Shown here piece by piece: positions 36,733 to 45,120 of a stretch of 46,043 nt of DNA. Position 1 is the stretch's first letter. Each line of letters opens with the position of its first letter. Below the pieces are notes generated by a model that was given only the letters and a program-made list of their open reading frames with translations, ran no database searches and had not been told where the DNA came from. Both the position numbers and the translations under genes were made by a program. The stretch covers positions 1 through 46,043 of the forward strand of contig JANQQJ010000022.1 of the NCBI GenBank assembly GCA_028284945.1, in the 5' to 3' direction. This DNA is from Alphaproteobacteria bacterium (GTDB lineage Bacteria > Pseudomonadota > Alphaproteobacteria > SMXS01).

Positions 36733-37953
36733 CTATCTCGGTTGCCGGTGGCTTTCCGTATAGGGAACGATCAACATCTTGCCGGTGATGGAGACCATCT
36801 GGTTTTCGTTCTCTGACAAGGTCGCACGCAACCGGAGCAGCATGTCGCCACCCAGGGTTTGCGACCAGAACCAGTCGGCTATTTCATTGCTTGAAGGATC
36901 GGACCCGTTCCGCCCGGGTTGGGCCGTCGCCGCTTCTGAGTAATAGGCTTTGAAATCATCGCAGGCCAGACGCAGTTGCGTTGGCAGATCGTTCTCTTCC
37001 GGACCGGCGTCCGGCGTCTCGCCGCGGGCCCACGCGGACAGGTAACGGACCAGGTCTTCGATCTCCAATTGGCTTGTGCCGACCGCCGTACGCCCTCGGC
37101 GATCTACTGCGAGGTCGTACCAGGAGCGCAGCGCCTCGATTTCATCCAGCAGCGCAGAATCCTGATCGCGTTCGGCTTCCGGCGCGGGCAGGTTGATCGG
37201 GCAGACCCAGCCTTCATCGTCTTCGCTTGACGATGCCGGTGCATCGTCAGGGAAATCTTCAAGGATCGGGCCATCCGTCCGCTCAAGCAGATCAAGAGCG
37301 CTGCGCAACACGCCGGTTTGGAAGGCTGTATCCTCAGGCGCGCCAAGCGGGCGGCCCAGCTCGAAGGGCACCCATAGAGCCCTTGGTGGCTTGACCTTCT
37401 CGGTATGCAATCGCACCAGGCTGATCCCGACGGTCGGGATACCAGCCGCTTCAAAATAATGACTGAGCCCGCCAACGGCGCGCGTGCAGAATGGTCAGAC
37501 GGGGGTTAGCAGCACCGCGTCGACGGCATCCTGTTTGAGCAATCCGGCGATCTGATCGGCGGCATCCTTCATAGTCAGCGGATCGGATGCGCCCATGAAC
37601 GAGTAATGGAATTCCGCCACGGAGCCGATCACACCCTCCGCAGCGAGCTCGTTCAACCGGTCCAGAGGGAACACCACATTGGTGTCCTGCTGAAACCCGG
37701 TGCGGTCGAAATTGGTCGATAGATGGCTGATCTGCACTGATCCTGCTGCGTCGCTGGGGATCACCCGGTAATCGGCGGCGCCAAAGCCGAATGGGCGGTC
37801 GCCGGGCCGTTGAAGCCCCGCTGTAGTGACTATGGCGACACGGCGCTCGGACAGCGGCGGGCCCTTTGCCAGCGGCGTATCGGGAAATTCTGGTATCTCC
37901 AGATGCTCCAGATGTTCCCGCAGAGTCTCGTCCATGTCCTCCATGCGTGCCAT
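36733..37953 (-). CDS. PrdB/GrdB-like selenoprotein (glycine/proline reductase selenoprotein B family)
   Basis: 406 residues when the in-frame UGA at 37497-37495 is read as selenocysteine (Sec153). Upstream and downstream halves are in one frame, and both match the family. Before the UGA: VAIVTTAGLQ, NVVFPLDRLNELAAEGVIG and DAVLLTPV. After it: PFCTRAVGGLSHYFEAAGIP, then PTVGISLVRLHTEKVKPPRA and LWVPFELGRPLGAP. In D-proline reductase PrdB the same place reads LLTPG-U-x-x-C, so U-P-F-C is the redox centre. The C-terminal half is a lineage-specific, acidic extension. It lies 14 bases after the UGSC gene and is the last gene of the operon. Substrate unknown; no pyruvoyl proprotein (PrdA/GrdE) is present. 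Confidence 0.88.
37470..37480 (-). promoter_or_regulatory. candidate bacterial SECIS of the PrdB-like gene
   Basis: CGCC-GTT-GGCG forms a 4-base-pair stem with a GUU triloop, extendable by two pairs past a G-G mismatch. The loop begins 19 bases after the UGA, in the usual distance range for bacterial SECIS elements, and has G as its first loop base. The same GUU triloop is found after the UGSC and selD UGA codons. Confidence 0.6.
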
Positions 37954-37967
37954 GCGTTCGCCCGTTC

Positions 37968-38486
37968 CTACTTTGTTAGCGCGTCGAGAATGGACTGTAC
38001 CGCGTCATCGGCCTTTTGACGCATTTCGTCGTCCGTTGCGTCCTGAATCGGATGATCGACGAAGACGGCCTTGGCCGTTTTCATGCCAAGCGCTGTTGCT
38101 TGCACATCGGCGGCGTCGACAAACTCTTCAGAGGCGACGGAAACGGAGGGGATGCCCTGGATTTCGAACCATACAGTGTCGTGCAAACTGCACGTCGTGC
38201 ATGAGCCTCAATCAGCCAGCGCCTCCACGACGAAATCGCATTCGTCCTTGATTTGGAGGCGCAGATCGTCCGGGCAGGGCTTGGTGAAGGTCGGTTTGGT
38301 ATAGCGTCTGATCTCAACGCCAGGCAGCTTGGTCTGCAGCTGCTCATCAAGCCTGTCGAGGAAGACGTCGCCGCGCGGCTTACGGATGTCTAGCAGGCCG
38401 ACGATGCCGGAGACCTCGCCGCTGCGCGGCGTCAATTGCCGCTCCACGGGTACCCGCTCATCCGTCGGGTCCAGAATTGTTGTCAT
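37968..38486 (-). CDS. UGSC-family selenoprotein
   Basis: 172 residues when the UGA at 38210-38208 is read as selenocysteine (Sec93). The N-terminal half ends FVVEALAD, then U-G-S-C-T-T-C, then SLHDTVWFEIQGIPSVSV and ASEEFVDAADVQATALGM. U-G-S-C is the naming motif of this family; homologs with CGSC exist. C96 should form a selenenylsulfide with Sec93, and C99 is an additional thiol. GGAGAG before the ATG is strong. It sits between the thioredoxin-fusion gene (28 bases upstream) and the PrdB-like gene (14 bases downstream). Function of the family is not established; a thiol/selenol redox role is inferred. Confidence 0.9.
38180..38194 (-). promoter_or_regulatory. candidate bacterial SECIS of the UGSC gene
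   Basis: CGTGCA-GTT-TGCACG is a perfect 6-base-pair stem with a GUU triloop, the loop starting 20 bases after the UGA. An alternative TGCAC-GAC-GTGCA hairpin overlaps it. Position and loop agree with the candidates in the other two selenoprotein genes. Confidence 0.65.
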
Positions 38487-38514
38487 AGGACTCTCCTATT
38501 CATTCGGCGCAAGC

Positions 38515-40107
38515 TTAACCGTCTTCGATCTTTCTGGAAACAGGCATCGAGCCGATCTCGCCGCTGGCCCAGCCGTGAAACGCGCCGGAGAATTTGCCGG
38601 CGTCCGATCCGGCCACGACAATATGGACGAAATCCTCACTGGCAAATTTCGGCGCCATGCGGTCCAGCTTCTCTGCAGCCATGGTGTCCGCGACCTCCTG
38701 CTTGAGCCCGACTCCGGAATTTTCATCGGCGATCAGCTCCCGCAAAGGCCGGGCGGTGACCGCTTGGATCTGGCGCCGCAGATCCGCCTTGGAATAGTTG
38801 CCCCGGCTCAGCGTATCGACGTGCTCTGGACACACTACCAGCAACGTGTCGATGCCCACCCGGTGGGCCTTTGGGTGAAACACGCTTTCCAGAGACATCG
38901 CCATGGAGCCTGCGATCTGGCTGGCCTCGCGCGAATCCTGGTCCACGATCAATGTCGGGCCGCTGGTCATGGCAAAGACGGTGAGTACTGAATCCTCGGG
39001 CTCGAACCCCCGCTCCACGTGTAACGGGTCCCAATTGCTGCGCTCCTCCCATTCGGGAAAGCACATGGTGAACTTCATCGGATTGCCGAGGGTCGATCGC
39101 TCGGTGCCGCCGGGTTCAGCACCACCGACATTGCGGACGATCAGCCGCAGGGCCCTGCCCATGGTTGCATTGGCGCGGTTGCCCTGACCCAGCGCGCCCA
39201 GCTTCATATTCATATCCAGCTTGTGGCGGATCGGCCCGTTGATCACCATCACCGGGGCGGCCCCCATCGTGGTGGCCATCACCCCATGGATATTGAATTC
39301 GTCTGTGCAGATCGCCTCGATTCCGGCGATCAGCACCGGCATATATTCAGGTTTACAGCCGGCCATAACCGCATTGATGGCGATCTTTTCTACCGTTACG
39401 TCGCCCATATTGGGCGGCATCTGGGCGACGATGTCCTGCGCGTCGCGTTTGGTGCCACTGAGCATCCGGATCACCCGCTCCGGCGTGGGCGGGACGACCG
39501 GCAGGCCATCGGTAAAACCCTGGTCGAACATGAACTCGAACTCGTCGTCCGCAGGGGCAATGTCGATGGAGCGGGCCCGCAGGGGGCTGTTCGAGGCCTC
39601 GGCCCGCAGCCGGTCGGCGATCACCGGGTCGACGGAGAGGGAGCCACAGCCCGGCCGCCATTCGGGTAGCGACGGCCAGTCGACAACGGCAGGGGCGCTG
39701 CCGGTCACTTTGCTAATTTCCGCATCCAGTGCCTGCCACTCATCGCGGACAAAGCCGATCACCTCGCCGATCATCTCGCCTTTGGAATTGGCCCAGTAGA
39801 GCGTGGGCACCGTATCGATGTCGTATTCAAAGGCGACCTTGAGCGCCGAGTCGTCGAGGATCGGCCCGGCAAGGTTGTGCACCTCAGCCAGTTTTTCATT
39901 GCCCTCGATGGTTTGACCCGCGACGAAGAAATCCACCGTGTCTCCATAAGCTTTGAAGAGCGCATCGATCACCGGCATCGCCACATTACAGGTCGGGCAA
40001 TCTTCCTTGACGAAAGCGATCAGCGCATGGCGGCCACTGGGAAAGCGATGTTCGTTGCCGGTTGGATCGGCGAGCGTGAAAGCGGGTAGGGTTCGGTTGT
40101 CGGTCAT
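38515..40107 (-). CDS. thioredoxin-like domain fused to a large uncharacterised domain
   Basis: 530 residues. Residues 1-130 are a thioredoxin/peroxiredoxin-like domain: ALIAFVKEDCPTCNVAMPV with C37-x-x-C40 at the helix start, and the cis-Pro region DTVPTLYW. Residues 150-530 form a domain I recognise as conserved but cannot name: RPGCGSLSVD, GFTDGLPVVPPTPERV, VTVEKIAINAVMAGCKPEYM, FNIHGVMATTMGAAPVMVIN and GRALRLIVRNVGG. First gene of the operon with the two selenoproteins, so the CPTC pair could re-reduce them. No signal peptide. A weak Shine-Dalgarno (GGAAC) precedes the ATG. Confidence 0.82.
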   Translation of the reverse strand: MTDNRTLPAFTLADPTGNEHRFPSGRHALIAFVKEDCPTCNVAMPVIDALFKAYGDTVDFFVAGQTIEGNEKLAEVHNLAGPILDDSALKVAFEYDIDTVPTLYWANSKGEMIGEVIGFVRDEWQALDAEISKVTGSAPAVVDWPSLPEWRPGCGSLSVDPVIADRLRAEASNSPLRARSIDIAPADDEFEFMFDQGFTDGLPVVPPTPERVIRMLSGTKRDAQDIVAQMPPNMGDVTVEKIAINAVMAGCKPEYMPVLIAGIEAICTDEFNIHGVMATTMGAAPVMVINGPIRHKLDMNMKLGALGQGNRANATMGRALRLIVRNVGGAEPGGTERSTLGNPMKFTMCFPEWEERSNWDPLHVERGFEPEDSVLTVFAMTSGPTLIVDQDSREASQIAGSMAMSLESVFHPKAHRVGIDTLLVVCPEHVDTLSRGNYSKADLRRQIQAVTARPLRELIADENSGVGLKQEVADTMAAEKLDRMAPKFASEDFVHIVVAGSDAGKFSGAFHGWASGEIGSMPVSRKIEDG

Positions 40108-40197
40108 AGTTCCAGTTTCCCCGTCTTTTTGGCCCGCCTACGTTTCACTTCGGCGCGGCATCCTCTTCGCACGCTCCGGCTCGTCACGCCGAAGCTA

Positions 40198-40218
40198 GAT
40201 TTTGGCTTTGCCAAAATC
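40198..40218 (-). terminator. hairpin downstream of tRNA-Sec
   Basis: GATTTTGGC-TTT-GCCAAAATC is a perfect 9-base-pair stem with a 3-base loop, 41 bases after the tRNA 3' end. It has no external U-tract, although the stem itself is A/U-rich. It may end the tRNA transcript or only mark a processing site. Confidence 0.4.
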
Positions 40219-40258
40219 AGCGACCCGCTGCGCCAGCGCCTGCGCGGCGAGAGGCGGA

Positions 40259-40352
40259 TGGCGGAGACGGATGGGAATCGAACCCACCACACATATCGCT
40301 ATGTGTCACCGGCTTTGAAGGCCGTGGAAGCCACCAGACTCCATTCGTCTCC
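40259..40352 (-). tRNA. selC: tRNA-Sec (anticodon UCA)
   Basis: 94 bases including an encoded CCA. The acceptor GGAGACG pairs with CGTCTCC. The anticodon arm CGGC-CTTCAAA-GCCG places TCA in the loop, so it reads UGA. A long extra arm of seven pairs (ACACATA with TATGTGT) is diagnostic for selenocysteine tRNA, as are the lengthened D arm and the T arm GTGGG-TTCGATT-CCCAT. The eighth acceptor pair appears as A-C. It sits between the selenoprotein operon and selD, and is transcribed in the same direction as the operon. Confidence 0.95.
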
Positions 40353-40396
40353 CTCAGGTGGCGCCTTGTTTGAAGAGATCGTTCGCAAGCAAAGCC

Positions 40397-40407
40397 GGTC
40401 AAGTCAA
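40397..40407 (-). promoter_or_regulatory. possible -35 region for tRNA-Sec
   Basis: Minus-strand TTGACTTGACC, about 45-55 bases upstream of the tRNA 5' end, is the best -35-like element in the 125-base gap between tRNA-Sec and the divergent selD. No good -10 element stands out at the correct spacing, so this is tentative. Confidence 0.3.
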
Positions 40408-40477
40408 GGTGTCTGGACCGGAATCTGGCGATGCACTACAAAAATCAGGTCGTTAGACCACAAAGGAGTCATCGCGC

Positions 40478-41542
40478 ATGACGGATCGGGTGGATGTCCG
40501 CCTGACCCAGTTTGCCAAATCGGCTGGTTGAGCCGGCAAGCTAGGGCCAGAGGACCTGTCGCAAGTTTTGCGGCCGCTGAAATCGATGTTTCCGCAAGCG
40601 GACTTCCCGGATGTGCTGCGAGGCTTGAGCGCACCCGACGATGCCGCTGTGGTCAAACTCGATGACAAACAGGCGCTGGTCCTGACCGCTGATTTCTTCG
40701 CGCCCATCGTCGATGACCCGGTTGAATTCGGCGCGATTGCGGCCACCAACGCGCTGTCTGACATCTATGCCATGGGCGCGCGGCCTATTCTGGCAATCAA
40801 TCTGGCCGGGTTCCCGAAGGATATGGACCCGCAAATCCTGTCTGACATTCTGCGCGGTGGGGCCGACAAGGTGCTGGAGGCCGGGGCGGTCGTCGCGGGC
40901 GGCCACACGACCATTGATGAAGAACCGAAATATGGGCTTGCGGTCATCGGGCTCGTCGATCTGGACAAAATCTATCGTAATGAGGGCGCGCAGGCGGGCG
41001 ACCAGTTGCTGTTAACCAAACCGCTGGGGACCGGTGTGATCGCGACGGCGTTGAAGCGGGGCAAGGCGTCAGAGCCCTCCATCCGCGACGCCATCGCCAG
41101 CATGACGCGGTTGAGCAAGGTCGCTGTTGAGGTCTTGAAGGAGGCAGGTGGTGATGCAGTTCACGCTGTGACCGACATCACCGGCTTCTCGCTCGCCGGA
41201 CATGGCCATGAGATGGCGGCGCTGTCCGGCACGGCGCTCAACCTTCGCCTGGCTGACCTGCCGGTGCTGGAAGGCACTGAGGACTTGCTGGAACAGGGCA
41301 TCGGCTCAGGCGGCATGGACCGGAACCGCGACTATTACACCCAGTGGGTCAGCACCAAGGCCAATGCTGAATCGCCACGCCACCGGCTGATCTATGATCC
41401 GCAAACCTCCGGCGGGTTGCTGATCGCGGTCGGGCCGGAAGCGTTGGATGAGATATTGGCTGCCTTTGATGCGGCTGGCGAACCGGTCTGGCACATCGGC
41501 GAGGTTACTGAGGGTCCCGGCGGCTCGATAACGGTCGACTAG
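40478..41542 (+). CDS. selD: selenophosphate synthase, itself a selenoprotein (Sec18)
   Basis: 354 residues, starting at the ATG at 40478 (AGGAG upstream) and reading through an in-frame UGA at 40529-40531. The start is MTDRVDVRLTQFAKSAG-U-AGKLGP. Sec18 falls at the catalytic Cys17 of E. coli SelD, and K21 at Lys20. Downstream motifs are those of the PurM-like fold: DDAAVVKL, NALSDIYAMGARPI, GGHTTIDEEP, VTDITGFSLAGHGHEM and QTSGGLLIAV. It makes selenophosphate from selenide and ATP for SelA. A gene call beginning at TTG 40568 would remove the active site. Divergent from tRNA-Sec. Confidence 0.94.
40560..40572 (+). promoter_or_regulatory. candidate bacterial SECIS of selD
   Basis: CGCAA-GTT-TTGCG is a perfect 5-base-pair stem with a GUU triloop, the loop beginning 34 bases after the UGA, near the upper limit of the usual spacing. 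A nearer, weaker hairpin (AGGGCC-AGA-GGACCT, 40543-40557, one mismatch) is an alternative. Confidence 0.5.
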
Positions 41543-41579
41543 AAACGATTAGGAATCAGGCTGTGGATCATGGGCGGCG

Positions 41580-41912
41580 TTAGCGGCTGTCGTTGTCCCC
41601 TGCTGAACCGCCGTCACCATCGTCGTCGTTGCCAGCGCCACCCGCACCGCCACTCCCATAAATCAGGCCACCCTTGCCACCATGACCACTGTCACTGCCG
41701 TCGCCTCCAGCCCCGCCGCTGCCGTAGATCAGACCACCCTGGCCGCCGGCACCACTGTCGCCACCTTTGCCACCGTGACCGCCGGTGCCTTCCGATTCAT
41801 CGGTACTATCGGCGGACTTCGCCGTACTGGTGGCAGCATCGTCAGCTATTGCCGGTACGGCGACGACTGCGCCAATTATAAGTGTCGCCAAACCGAGAAA
41901 TTTCCGTTTCAT
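41580..41912 (-). CDS. secreted glycine-rich repeat protein
   Basis: 110 residues. A clear signal peptide (MKRKFLGLATLIIGAVVAVP, then AIA cleaved before DDAATS) is followed by a Ser/Asp/Thr stretch and a Gly-rich region. Two copies of a GHGGKGG-containing unit each lead to LIYGSGGAGG. The end is acidic (NDDDGDGGSAGDNDSR). It is probably exported and flexible; no enzyme motif is present. It lies opposite in direction between selD and selA. The Shine-Dalgarno AGGAG can pair with CTCCT just before the ATG (AGGAG-CGA-CTCCT), which may restrict translation. I do not recognise a named family. Confidence 0.7.
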   Translation of the reverse strand: MKRKFLGLATLIIGAVVAVPAIADDAATSTAKSADSTDESEGTGGHGGKGGDSGAGGQGGLIYGSGGAGGDGSDSGHGGKGGLIYGSGGAGGAGNDDDGDGGSAGDNDSR

Positions 41913-41992
41913 AGGAGTCGCTCCTCTTCCATGGGACTACCGTTAGGACTTGGATATAAGTTTCGACACTGGCTTACGCTATAGTCGCACGG

Positions 41993-43384
41993 ATGGATAA
42001 GAAACTCTTCAGGCAAATCCCTCAGGTTGGCGAGCTTGCGGCATCGCCGGCTTTGTCGCCGCTGCGTGATGGGTGGTCGCAGACTGAGATCGTTGGCGCG
42101 CTTCGAGCGCTGCTGGATAGTGTGCGTGCTGACCTGGGCAGTGGTGGGGCGCTGCCTGACTTTGCCTCCGACGGCTTTGTTGCTGACGTCGAAGCAGAGT
42201 TGCAGGCGAAAAAGCGGCTCAACCTACGGCGGGTCATTAACGGCACCGGGATCATCATCCATACCAATCTGGGCCGTGCGCCGTTGGCGCCGCAGGCCAT
42301 CGAAGCCATGCAGGACGTCGCGCAAGGCTATGCCAATATCGAATATGACCTTGAGGCCGGGAGGCGCGGCTCCCGTTACGACCATATTCGCGACCTTCTC
42401 TGCGAGCTGACCGGTGCGGAAGATGCGGTCGTGGTTAACAATTGCGCGGCAGCCGTGACGATTGCCATGGCGACTTTTGCCCGCGACCGGGAGGTTGTTG
42501 TCTCGCGTGGCGAACTGGTCGAAATCGGCGGGTCATTCCGGGTGCCCGATGTGATTTCCCAGAACGGCGCGCGGCTGCGTGAAGTCGGCACCACCAACAA
42601 GACGCATCTTGCCGATTACGAGCGAGCGATTGGCGGGGAAACGGCGGTGCTGCTGCGCACCCATACCAGCAATTACCGGCTGGTCGGGTTTACGGCCAAA
42701 CCGTCTTTGAACGAACTCGCCAATCTGGCCCACGCCAACGATCTCATTCTGGTCGAAGACTTGGGCAGCGGCACGCTTGTTGATCTGGCAGCTCATGGCA
42801 TCGGTGATGAACCGACCGTGTCGCACAGCATCCGGTCCGGCGTCGATTTGGTGACCTTCTCCGGTGACAAGTTGTTGGGCGGGCCCCAATGCGGCGTCCT
42901 GGTCGGCAAGGCCGACTTGATCGCCCAGGTCAGAAAGAACCCGTTGCTGCGGGCGATGCGGAGCGACAAGCTCTCACTGGCCGCGCTAGAGGCCACATTG
43001 CGGCTCTATCGCCCACCGCATGATCCACTTAACGACGTACCCGTGCTCCGCATGCTGACGGCATCCGCGGAGGATTTGGCCGAAAACGCAGGTGCGCTGG
43101 TTGCCGATCTTGGACAGGTTCCGGGCGTGTCTGCCCAAACCCTTCCGATTCCGTCAGAGGCAGGCGGTGGATCGCTGCCCGGCGTTCAACTGGACTCCAC
43201 GGGGATCGCGCTCAGCGTCGGCGACCTGACTGGCAAAGCGCTCATTGCGCGCCTGCGGGCCAACGAGCCTGCCATTATTGGCCGTATTGTTGACGATCAG
43301 GCGATCCTCGATGTGCGGACGCTGACGCCGGGCGATGTGGATGACATTGCCGCCGCGCTGATGGCGATCTCTGAAAGCGCATAG
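41993..43384 (+). CDS. selA: L-seryl-tRNA(Sec) selenium transferase
   Basis: 463 residues, a standard length. The PLP-dependent enzyme converts seryl-tRNA(Sec) to selenocysteyl-tRNA(Sec) using selenophosphate. Motifs: RRVINGTGIIIHTNLGRAPL, the AVVVNNCAAAVTIAM loop, VEDLGSGTLVDL, and the PLP lysine K293 in TFSGDKLLGGPQCG. The C-terminus IIGRIVDDQAILDVRTLTPG is typical. No good Shine-Dalgarno precedes the ATG; a TATAGT sequence at 41980-41985 is very close to it. Followed after 5 bases by selB. Confidence 0.96.
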   Translation: MDKKLFRQIPQVGELAASPALSPLRDGWSQTEIVGALRALLDSVRADLGSGGALPDFASDGFVADVEAELQAKKRLNLRRVINGTGIIIHTNLGRAPLAPQAIEAMQDVAQGYANIEYDLEAGRRGSRYDHIRDLLCELTGAEDAVVVNNCAAAVTIAMATFARDREVVVSRGELVEIGGSFRVPDVISQNGARLREVGTTNKTHLADYERAIGGETAVLLRTHTSNYRLVGFTAKPSLNELANLAHANDLILVEDLGSGTLVDLAAHGIGDEPTVSHSIRSGVDLVTFSGDKLLGGPQCGVLVGKADLIAQVRKNPLLRAMRSDKLSLAALEATLRLYRPPHDPLNDVPVLRMLTASAEDLAENAGALVADLGQVPGVSAQTLPIPSEAGGGSLPGVQLDSTGIALSVGDLTGKALIARLRANEPAIIGRIVDDQAILDVRTLTPGDVDDIAAALMAISESA

Positions 43385-43389
43385 ACCCG

Positions 43390-45120
43390 GTGCAGGACCA
43401 TCTTTCAGTTGGCGTGGTGGGCCATGTCGATCATGGCAAGACCACCTTGGTCAAGTCTTTGACCGGGACAGAGACGGACCGGCTTGCCGAAGAGCGCGAG
43501 CGGGGCCTGAGCATCGTGTTGGGCTTTGCTTTTCGTGAAACCGACAAGGGTGTGATCGATTTCATCGACGCGCCGGGGCATGCGGATTTTGTCCGCACCA
43601 TGATTTCCGGCGCGACGGGCATTGACGCCGCGCTGGTGGTGGTTGACGTCAATGAAGGGATCATGCCGCAAACCTGTGAGCATCTGCGGATTGTTTCGCT
43701 TTTGGGGATTTCACGGTTGGTCGTGGCGTTGACGAAGATCGATCTGGCGACGGATGGAGTCGTGGCGTCGGCAGAGGCGGCGCTAAGGACCTATTTGTCG
43801 AGCGTTGGCTTCAGTGATGTTGTCTTTGTGCCGGTCTGTGCGCTTTCGGGTCAGGGGGTCGACCGGCTGGTCGCTGCACTCGAACAGCTATTCCAGAAAG
43901 AAGCCGAACAGGCCCATGGCGATAAATTCTATTTGCCTTTTGACCGGGTCTTCACGGTGCGCGGCTTTGGCACCGTTGTAACGGGCACGTTGCGCGCGGG
44001 AACCATGAAGATTGGAGACGAGGGCCAGATTATCGGCACGAACGCGGCTGCCCGGGTGCGCCGGTTGGAGGTCCACGGTACCGAGGTGGATGTGGCAAAG
44101 CCCGGCCAACGGGTCGCGGCCAATCTGCGGGTCGATGGAGGCGTGACGCTGGAACGCGGTCAGGCGGTTGCGGCGCCCGGCTGGATCGAGCCGTCTGAAT
44201 GGTGGTCCGCGAGCCTCAATATGGCCGGCGACGTTGAGGTCAGCTTGAAGAATGGTAAGCCGGTTCGTCTGTTACATGGTACGCGCGAGGTGATCGCGAC
44301 GCTGCGGCTGCTGGACCGGGACATCGTCGCGCCGGGCGAACAGGCTAACGTCCAGTTTCATCTAAAACAGCCAGAGGGTGCCTGGGACCAGGAGCACTTC
44401 ATTGTCCGAACCATCTCACCTGTGGAAACCGTTGGCGGGGGCCGGTTTCTCGATACGGCCGCAACACGCATCAAACGTTACGACGAAAATGCAATCCGCA
44501 GGCTGGCATCAGGCGAGGCCGAGGATGACGGCGTCGACCCATCAGAAAGCATGATTGAGGCCGTGCAAGCCTATCACGCATCGCACCCCATGCGCGTCGG
44601 GATGCCGAGGCTTGAACTGGCGGACAAACTTGGTTTGGAGCGTCAGACCATGACCGATTTACTGGCGCGGTTGCAAGCTGCTGGACGGCTAATTGATCAT
44701 GGTGCGCAGATCAGTCTTGCAGACTTTGATCCGCTTGAATCGTTGGACGACCGGGAACGGGCTCGGGTCGAGGCGCTCGAAAGCCTCATTCGCGAAACCC
44801 CGTTGATGCCGCCGACGCTCGATGAGGTCGTCGCGCTGGACCGCCAAAACAAGGCAAGTGCCGAACTACTGATTGAAACGGGCAAGGTCGTCCCGCTGCA
44901 CGACTTTAAGCGCAAGAACCTGTTTCTGTTCCATGCCACGGACATTGAAGACGCCGTTGCGTCTTTGCGTCAGGCGTGGCCGCCGCCTGCCCGGTTTCGT
45001 CTGGGCGAGGCGCGCGAGCATCTCGGCGTGACCCGAAAGTTTCTCCAGCCGCTGCTTGAATATCTCGACAAGCAGAAGATCACGCAGCGGCGGGAGGATT
45101 TTCGGGAAATGCTATCCTAG
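43390..45120 (+). CDS. selB: selenocysteine-specific translation elongation factor
   Basis: 576 residues from GTG at 43390. GTPase motifs: G1 GHVDHGKT (11-18), G2 RGLSIVLGF, G3 DAPGH, G4 TKID. Translation-factor beta-barrels follow (FTVRGFGTVVTGTLRAG). The C-terminal third carries the winged-helix modules that bind the SECIS, including RFRLGEAREHLGVTRKFLQP and LLEYLDKQKITQRR. It delivers Sec-tRNA to UGA codons with an adjacent SECIS. The 5-base gap from selA implies one transcript. Confidence 0.95.
   Translation: MQDHLSVGVVGHVDHGKTTLVKSLTGTETDRLAEERERGLSIVLGFAFRETDKGVIDFIDAPGHADFVRTMISGATGIDAALVVVDVNEGIMPQTCEHLRIVSLLGISRLVVALTKIDLATDGVVASAEAALRTYLSSVGFSDVVFVPVCALSGQGVDRLVAALEQLFQKEAEQAHGDKFYLPFDRVFTVRGFGTVVTGTLRAGTMKIGDEGQIIGTNAAARVRRLEVHGTEVDVAKPGQRVAANLRVDGGVTLERGQAVAAPGWIEPSEWWSASLNMAGDVEVSLKNGKPVRLLHGTREVIATLRLLDRDIVAPGEQANVQFHLKQPEGAWDQEHFIVRTISPVETVGGGRFLDTAATRIKRYDENAIRRLASGEAEDDGVDPSESMIEAVQAYHASHPMRVGMPRLELADKLGLERQTMTDLLARLQAAGRLIDHGAQISLADFDPLESLDDRERARVEALESLIRETPLMPPTLDEVVALDRQNKASAELLIETGKVVPLHDFKRKNLFLFHATDIEDAVASLRQAWPPPARFRLGEAREHLGVTRKFLQPLLEYLDKQKITQRREDFREMLS

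Follow-up and report, generated by a model that had tools for sequence, protein, structure and literature searches.

A Thioredoxin-Linked Domain That Pairs Almost Obligately with the Selenoprotein UGSC

Introduction

In the window, by which we mean the whole 46,043-nucleotide stretch of alphaproteobacterial DNA that was analyzed, a thioredoxin fold is joined in one 530-residue protein to a large domain that the initial annotation could not name, and the next gene in the row encodes a selenoprotein of the UGSC family. What does this domain do, and does it work together with its selenoprotein neighbor? UGSC is among the most abundant selenoproteins of aquatic metagenomes; it was recognized as a major aquatic selenoprotein in 2008, in the available text of the Global Ocean Sampling study (PMC2398784), and a 2026 review places it among the proteins predicted with high confidence, the functions of which are largely uncharacterized (PMC13188914). 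Our literature search found no function assigned to UGSC since 2008 and no description of the partner domain or of the thioredoxin system considered below.

Results

The gene under study lies among the following features, all positions being those of the window:

38515..40107, minus strand: fusion of thioredoxin and UGSC-partner domain, 530 residues (open reading frame; ATG at 40107, stop at 38515)
39697..40107, minus strand: TlpA/ResA-type thioredoxin domain, residues 1-137, with CPTC (C37/C40) (fold match)
38518..39660, minus strand: UGSC-partner domain, residues about 150-530 (alignments; AlphaFold model)
37968..38486, minus strand: UGSC family selenoprotein, UGA (Sec93) at 38208-38210 (PF24696, E 3.5e-38; NF041046, E 9.1e-37)
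36733..37953, minus strand: PrdB/GrdB-like selenoprotein, in-frame UGA at 37495-37497 (TIGR04483, E 4.6e-30; PF07355, E 1e-10)
40263..40352, minus strand: tRNA-Sec, selC (RF01852, 78.7 bits; ARAGORN)
40568..41542, plus strand: selD (TIGR00476, E 1.7e-101)
41993..43384, plus strand: selA (TIGR00474, E 1.3e-172)
43390..45120, plus strand: selB (TIGR00475, E 8e-90)

The tRNA-Sec is located 155 nt upstream of the 530-residue gene on the same minus strand, and it is followed there by the thioredoxin-domain gene, the UGSC selenoprotein and the PrdB-like selenoprotein. The selenoprotein operon that had been proposed from the bare sequence was borne out by the tRNA-Sec, UGSC, the PrdB-like gene with its in-frame TGA, and selD, selA and selB alongside. 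Together, the tRNA-Sec, selD, selA, selB and the two selenoprotein genes make up a single island (36733-45120). Between selD and selA, a 110-residue reading frame on the minus strand (41580-41912) is low in complexity, rich in Gly, Asp and Ser, and has a signal-like start. Within the family of the window genome, selB was found in exactly 4 of 10 genomes, and these are the same four that hold the domain and UGSC. Phage records gave no match.

The UGSC protein of the window has the U-G-S-C motif and exceeded both curated cut-offs (PF24696, 131.9 bits against 25; NF041046, 126.3 against 125), and nearly every relative carries a UGA at the corresponding position. A hairpin was predicted after this UGA, but it was no better than those of shuffled sequences (z -0.97). 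When UGSC was compared with the PrdB-like profile, the probability was 83%, rising to 92% when the PrdB-like side was restricted to a divergent subset, and Sec aligned with Sec, while nine shuffled or reversed controls reached at most 1.1%. By profile comparison, UGSC is probably a remote relative of PrdB-like proteins, in the sense of remote homology and not of family membership. The PrdB-like gene adjoins the domain-UGSC module only in the window genome and one relative (G007), which rules it out as a core partner. In a further genome, a PrdB-like gene with an in-frame TGA (G005:C98:1665-2252) was found where selB gave no match at 1e-60.

Residues 1-137 have the TlpA/ResA-type thioredoxin fold (VIA Z 18.0 to 3gl3_A, 134 aligned residues, 2.0 A), and 92 of the 94 thioredoxin-fused proteins retain both cysteines of the CPTC active site (C37/C40). 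When the full-length protein was submitted to Foldseek and VIA, only this part was matched. Fold and CxxC are thus common to residues 1-137 and the TlpA/ResA thiol-disulfide oxidoreductases, whereas the thioredoxin of the window protein is fused to a domain of 380 residues. In a quick maximum-likelihood tree the thioredoxin-fused proteins form one supported group, and the fusion therefore probably arose once.

No match was obtained for residues 150-530 in Pfam, NCBIfam or the PDB sequences, and 29 diverse members of the domain family likewise matched nothing in Pfam or NCBIfam. The initial annotation was thus right that the domain could not be named; a match to a well-known enzyme family unrelated to redox or selenium, which would have spoken against it, was looked for and did not occur. 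Its impression of conservation also stood, homologues showing 27-87% identity over more than 100 loci with conservation far above chance, and the motifs that it had singled out (GFTDGLPVVPPTPERV, AINAVMAGCKPEYM and RPGCGS with C154) are all present in the protein. AlphaFold modeled the whole 530-residue protein with a pLDDT of 93.6 and the domain alone with a pLDDT of 91.1 and a pTM of 0.90. With this domain model, Foldseek found no PDB fold at E<=0.001. The best of the weak matches were to fumarases and to cyclic amide hydrolases, with E values of 0.007-0.05, probabilities of at most 0.35 and TM scores, taken over the query, of at most 0.23, and VIA ranked a chorismate mutase highest (Z 5.2); all three were too weak to be taken as homology. 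The domain may possibly represent a new fold, judging from the model. Comparison of its profile with the PrdB-like and UGSC profiles revealed no relation.

The conservation alignment comprised 146 domain sequences, 94 of them thioredoxin-fused and 52 thioredoxin-less. Five residues (D200, G201, G291, R318 and E352) were identical in all 146, and C251 of the MAGC motif was present in 144, including every one of the 52 thioredoxin-less proteins. On the basis of the alignment, C251, D200, R318 and E352 are the candidate functional residues of the whole family. Gly or Ala stands in place of C251 in two thioredoxin-fused loci from metagenome-assembled genomes (L040, 4629-6221; L045, 5545-7140), both of which keep the UGA of UGSC; the loss may be either a real change or an assembly error. 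C154, to which the initial annotation had drawn attention, occurs in 94 of 94 thioredoxin-fused proteins, whereas it is not conserved in the 52 others. It is therefore a mark of the thioredoxin-fused clade, and a catalytic role throughout the family was ruled out.

Considering that stand-alone copies of the domain next to UGSC had been named as the check to make, the gene contexts of both families were compared. The result was strongly positive. Among 143 related genomes, the domain was present in 17; these 17 also had UGSC (PF24696), which occurred in 0 of the remaining 126, a coincidence with a chance of 2e-22 if the genomes are taken as independent. At 29 of 31 UGSC genes the domain was adjacent and on the same strand; UGSC followed a domain gene in one layout and preceded a pair of them in the other, and haloarchaea additionally showed the order domain-UGSC-domain. 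Of 15 plasmid loci checked with profiles, haloarchaeal and actinobacterial ones among them, UGSC adjoins or is fused to the domain in 13; in the other two (Sporomusa and Vibrio) a degenerate UGSC is fused to it. Variovorax boronicumulans (L163) carries UGSC and the domain in one chain, and Neorhizobium records match this protein over 95-98% of its length, so that Neorhizobium probably has the same fusion. Unpaired cases, with no partner in reach, numbered two for UGSC and three for the domain, and Haladaptatus has a lone domain without UGSC. Since stand-alone copies lie beside UGSC, the domain is its core partner, and the pairing is shown to be near-obligate genetically.

Selenium is not a constant element of the pair. 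Among the 13 plasmid loci with UGSC adjacent or fused, Paracoccus and Acidovorax have the Sec form of UGSC and the rest have the Cys form, and Cys replaces Sec in haloarchaea, Arthrobacter, Roseovarius and Variovorax. In the single chains of Sporomusa (L160, 8329-10053) and Vibrio (L164, 6362-8047), the N-terminal UGSC half has lost Sec/Cys, and nevertheless the conserved residues of the domain are kept. Both genes adjoin genes for aconitase X and DUF126. In the annotation of Paracoccus plasmid pFER4, the UGSC selenoprotein (L165, 6405-6974) is broken at its UGA into two hypothetical proteins.

The module is also shown to be genetically linked to the thioredoxin system. The gene order is trxB-trxA-domain-UGSC in Arthrobacter and domain-UGSC-trxB in Roseovarius, and a TrxB-like flavoprotein lies on one side of 6 of the 7 proteobacterial tandem loci (UGSC with two domains). 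With 25 TrxB-like genes in 42 Mb of ten genomes, the background probability is 0.007 per 12-kb stretch; the presence of TrxB beside these six is not due to chance, even if common descent links the loci. Five neighboring flavoproteins were scanned, and all scored best to TIGR01292 (thioredoxin reductase), one of them above the cut-off. A TrxB-like gene was nearby in only 4 of 80 thioredoxin-fused loci, and many thioredoxin-less single-copy loci had none nearby.

The genome collection contained 115 confirmed domain loci; the best 80 of these 115 carry thioredoxin and belong mostly to marine Pseudomonadales and Alphaproteobacteria. The domain was also found on 24 plasmids, including those of haloarchaea, Arthrobacter, Variovorax, Paracoccus, Roseovarius, Acidovorax, Sporomusa and Vibrio, and the plasmid copies examined were without fused thioredoxin. 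The distribution is patchy, with several divergent copies per genome and carriage on plasmids. Neighboring genes encode CoA-transferase, acyl-CoA dehydrogenase, CoA ester lyase, RraA-like proteins and TRAP or tricarboxylate (TTT) uptake systems. The module would thus serve carboxylate or acyl-CoA catabolism, with substrates differing between loci; because the neighbors vary, they do not point to one particular substrate. Acidovorax sp. T1 carries the module on its conjugative plasmid p2-T1 (L159), close to IS1071, where degradation genes are typically found. In a Henriciella-like genome (L064, 7802-9970), an oxidoreductase-SelD fusion lies directly downstream of the module and selB directly upstream.

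Discussion

The near-constant adjacency or fusion with UGSC indicates that the domain and UGSC are probably the halves of one thioredoxin-powered enzyme for the breakdown of organic compounds. We give a probability of roughly 0.6 to the reading that they form a two-component, thioredoxin-driven selenol/thiol enzyme of two subunits, in which the domain binds the substrate, UGSC supplies the selenol or thiol, and thioredoxin reduces, after the manner of glycine and D-proline reductase; complex formation, reductive chemistry, the roles of single residues and the class of substrate are what we infer beyond the genetic pairing. The substrate bound by the domain would most likely be a small carboxylate or an acyl-CoA intermediate; the domain would also contribute the conserved D200, R318, E352 and C251. 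The selenol (or thiol) of UGSC would attack this substrate, and the oxidized Se-S or S-S bond would then be reduced by thioredoxin. In the clade of the window protein, thioredoxin is part of the same chain and the linker cysteine C154 would likely serve for relay or docking, while other lineages would rely on a separate TrxB-like reductase and sometimes on TrxA. As first in its operon, the domain had been proposed as the catalytic or substrate-binding part of the system. It is indeed a good candidate for this as the core partner of UGSC, but neither C154 as catalytic residue nor the PrdB-like gene as part of the core was upheld.

Some of the data count against a two-component reductase. The loss of Sec/Cys in Vibrio and Sporomusa means that the core function may be something other than redox chemistry, and C251 is absent in 2 of 146 sequences, single-copy loci free of TrxB exist, and a few genes are unpaired. 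The system could instead be a lyase, hydrolase or isomerase, without redox catalysis: the domain would carry out the reaction, the Sec/Cys of UGSC would act as nucleophile or acid-base group and have to stay reduced, and thioredoxin would only repair it. We retain this reading, unlikely as we consider it, mainly because of the single chains that lost both U and C of UGSC, keep the domain residues and lack a neighboring TrxB; both also adjoin aconitase X genes, and fumarase and cyclic amide hydrolases were the weak best fold matches. On the other hand, repair does not usually come with TrxB paralogues of its own and a thioredoxin joined to the enzyme covalently, Sec is kept in nearly all Sec-decoding relatives, and a reductase subunit is a probable remote homologue of UGSC.

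A role in stress or repair (peroxide, sulfoxide or thiol repair), like that of other thioredoxin-linked selenoproteins, would agree with the thioredoxin-fold domain and with the available text of the Global Ocean Sampling study, in which most marine selenoproteins are thiol oxidoreductases (PMC2398784). It is nevertheless improbable, given the patchy distribution, the divergent copies per genome, the plasmid carriage and the catabolic neighbors, and a 380-residue partner domain would be unusual for such an enzyme. Least credible of all is a helper function in selenium metabolism or Sec incorporation. The gene does sit among selA, selB, selC and selD in the window, and similarly in Henriciella-like loci, and the four selB genomes in the family of the window genome are exactly those holding the module; yet the Cys-type pairs of haloarchaea, Arthrobacter, Roseovarius and Variovorax largely refute it, and six selB genomes are without the module.

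Returning to the two-component, thioredoxin-driven enzyme, a wider proposal may be put forward more tentatively. The domain could have a new fold and could constitute, together with UGSC, a class of selenol/thiol reductase of its own, driven by thioredoxin and taking a substituent off carboxylate or acyl-CoA intermediates. It would be the counterpart of glycine and D-proline reductase in organisms other than the Stickland fermenters, plasmids would have carried it among bacteria and haloarchaea, and selenium would be optional; we regard this as possible but rather doubtful. The near-obligate partner and the tie to thioredoxin turn UGSC from an orphan into part of a defined candidate two-component enzyme that is open to expression and assay, and the Cys-type versions of the pair need no selenocysteine machinery.

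The downstream neighbor in the window is a clear member of the UGSC-containing selenoproteins (PF24696, NF041046). The available text of the Global Ocean Sampling study describes UGSC fused to a conserved domain called Unknown_1 (PMC2398784), a fusion of the same kind as the Variovorax protein, and Unknown_1 is probably the UGSC-partner domain. In contrast to our results, that text gives no thioredoxin link, family-wide pairing or mechanism; no earlier description of the domain-UGSC pairing or of its thioredoxin link was found in the literature consulted.

Glycine/sarcosine/betaine and D-proline reductases (GrdB, PrdB) are thioredoxin-dependent selenoenzymes, and they are the known systems closest to the module in plan. 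The Sec subunit of glycine/D-proline reductase is probably a remote homologue of UGSC, with Sec aligned, and a supply of electrons by thioredoxin would fit the gene neighborhood and fusion seen here. The partner appears to differ: it is GrdE/PrdA (pyruvoyl-type, PF09338) in those reductases, whereas the UGSC-partner domain has no PF09338 match by HMMER. PF09338 was matched in none of the 143 genomes, that of the window included, in a search that had no working positive control. Unlike glycine/D-proline reductase, the domain-UGSC module is found among catabolic genes of proteobacteria, actinobacteria and haloarchaea, and Cys often takes the place of Sec in it.
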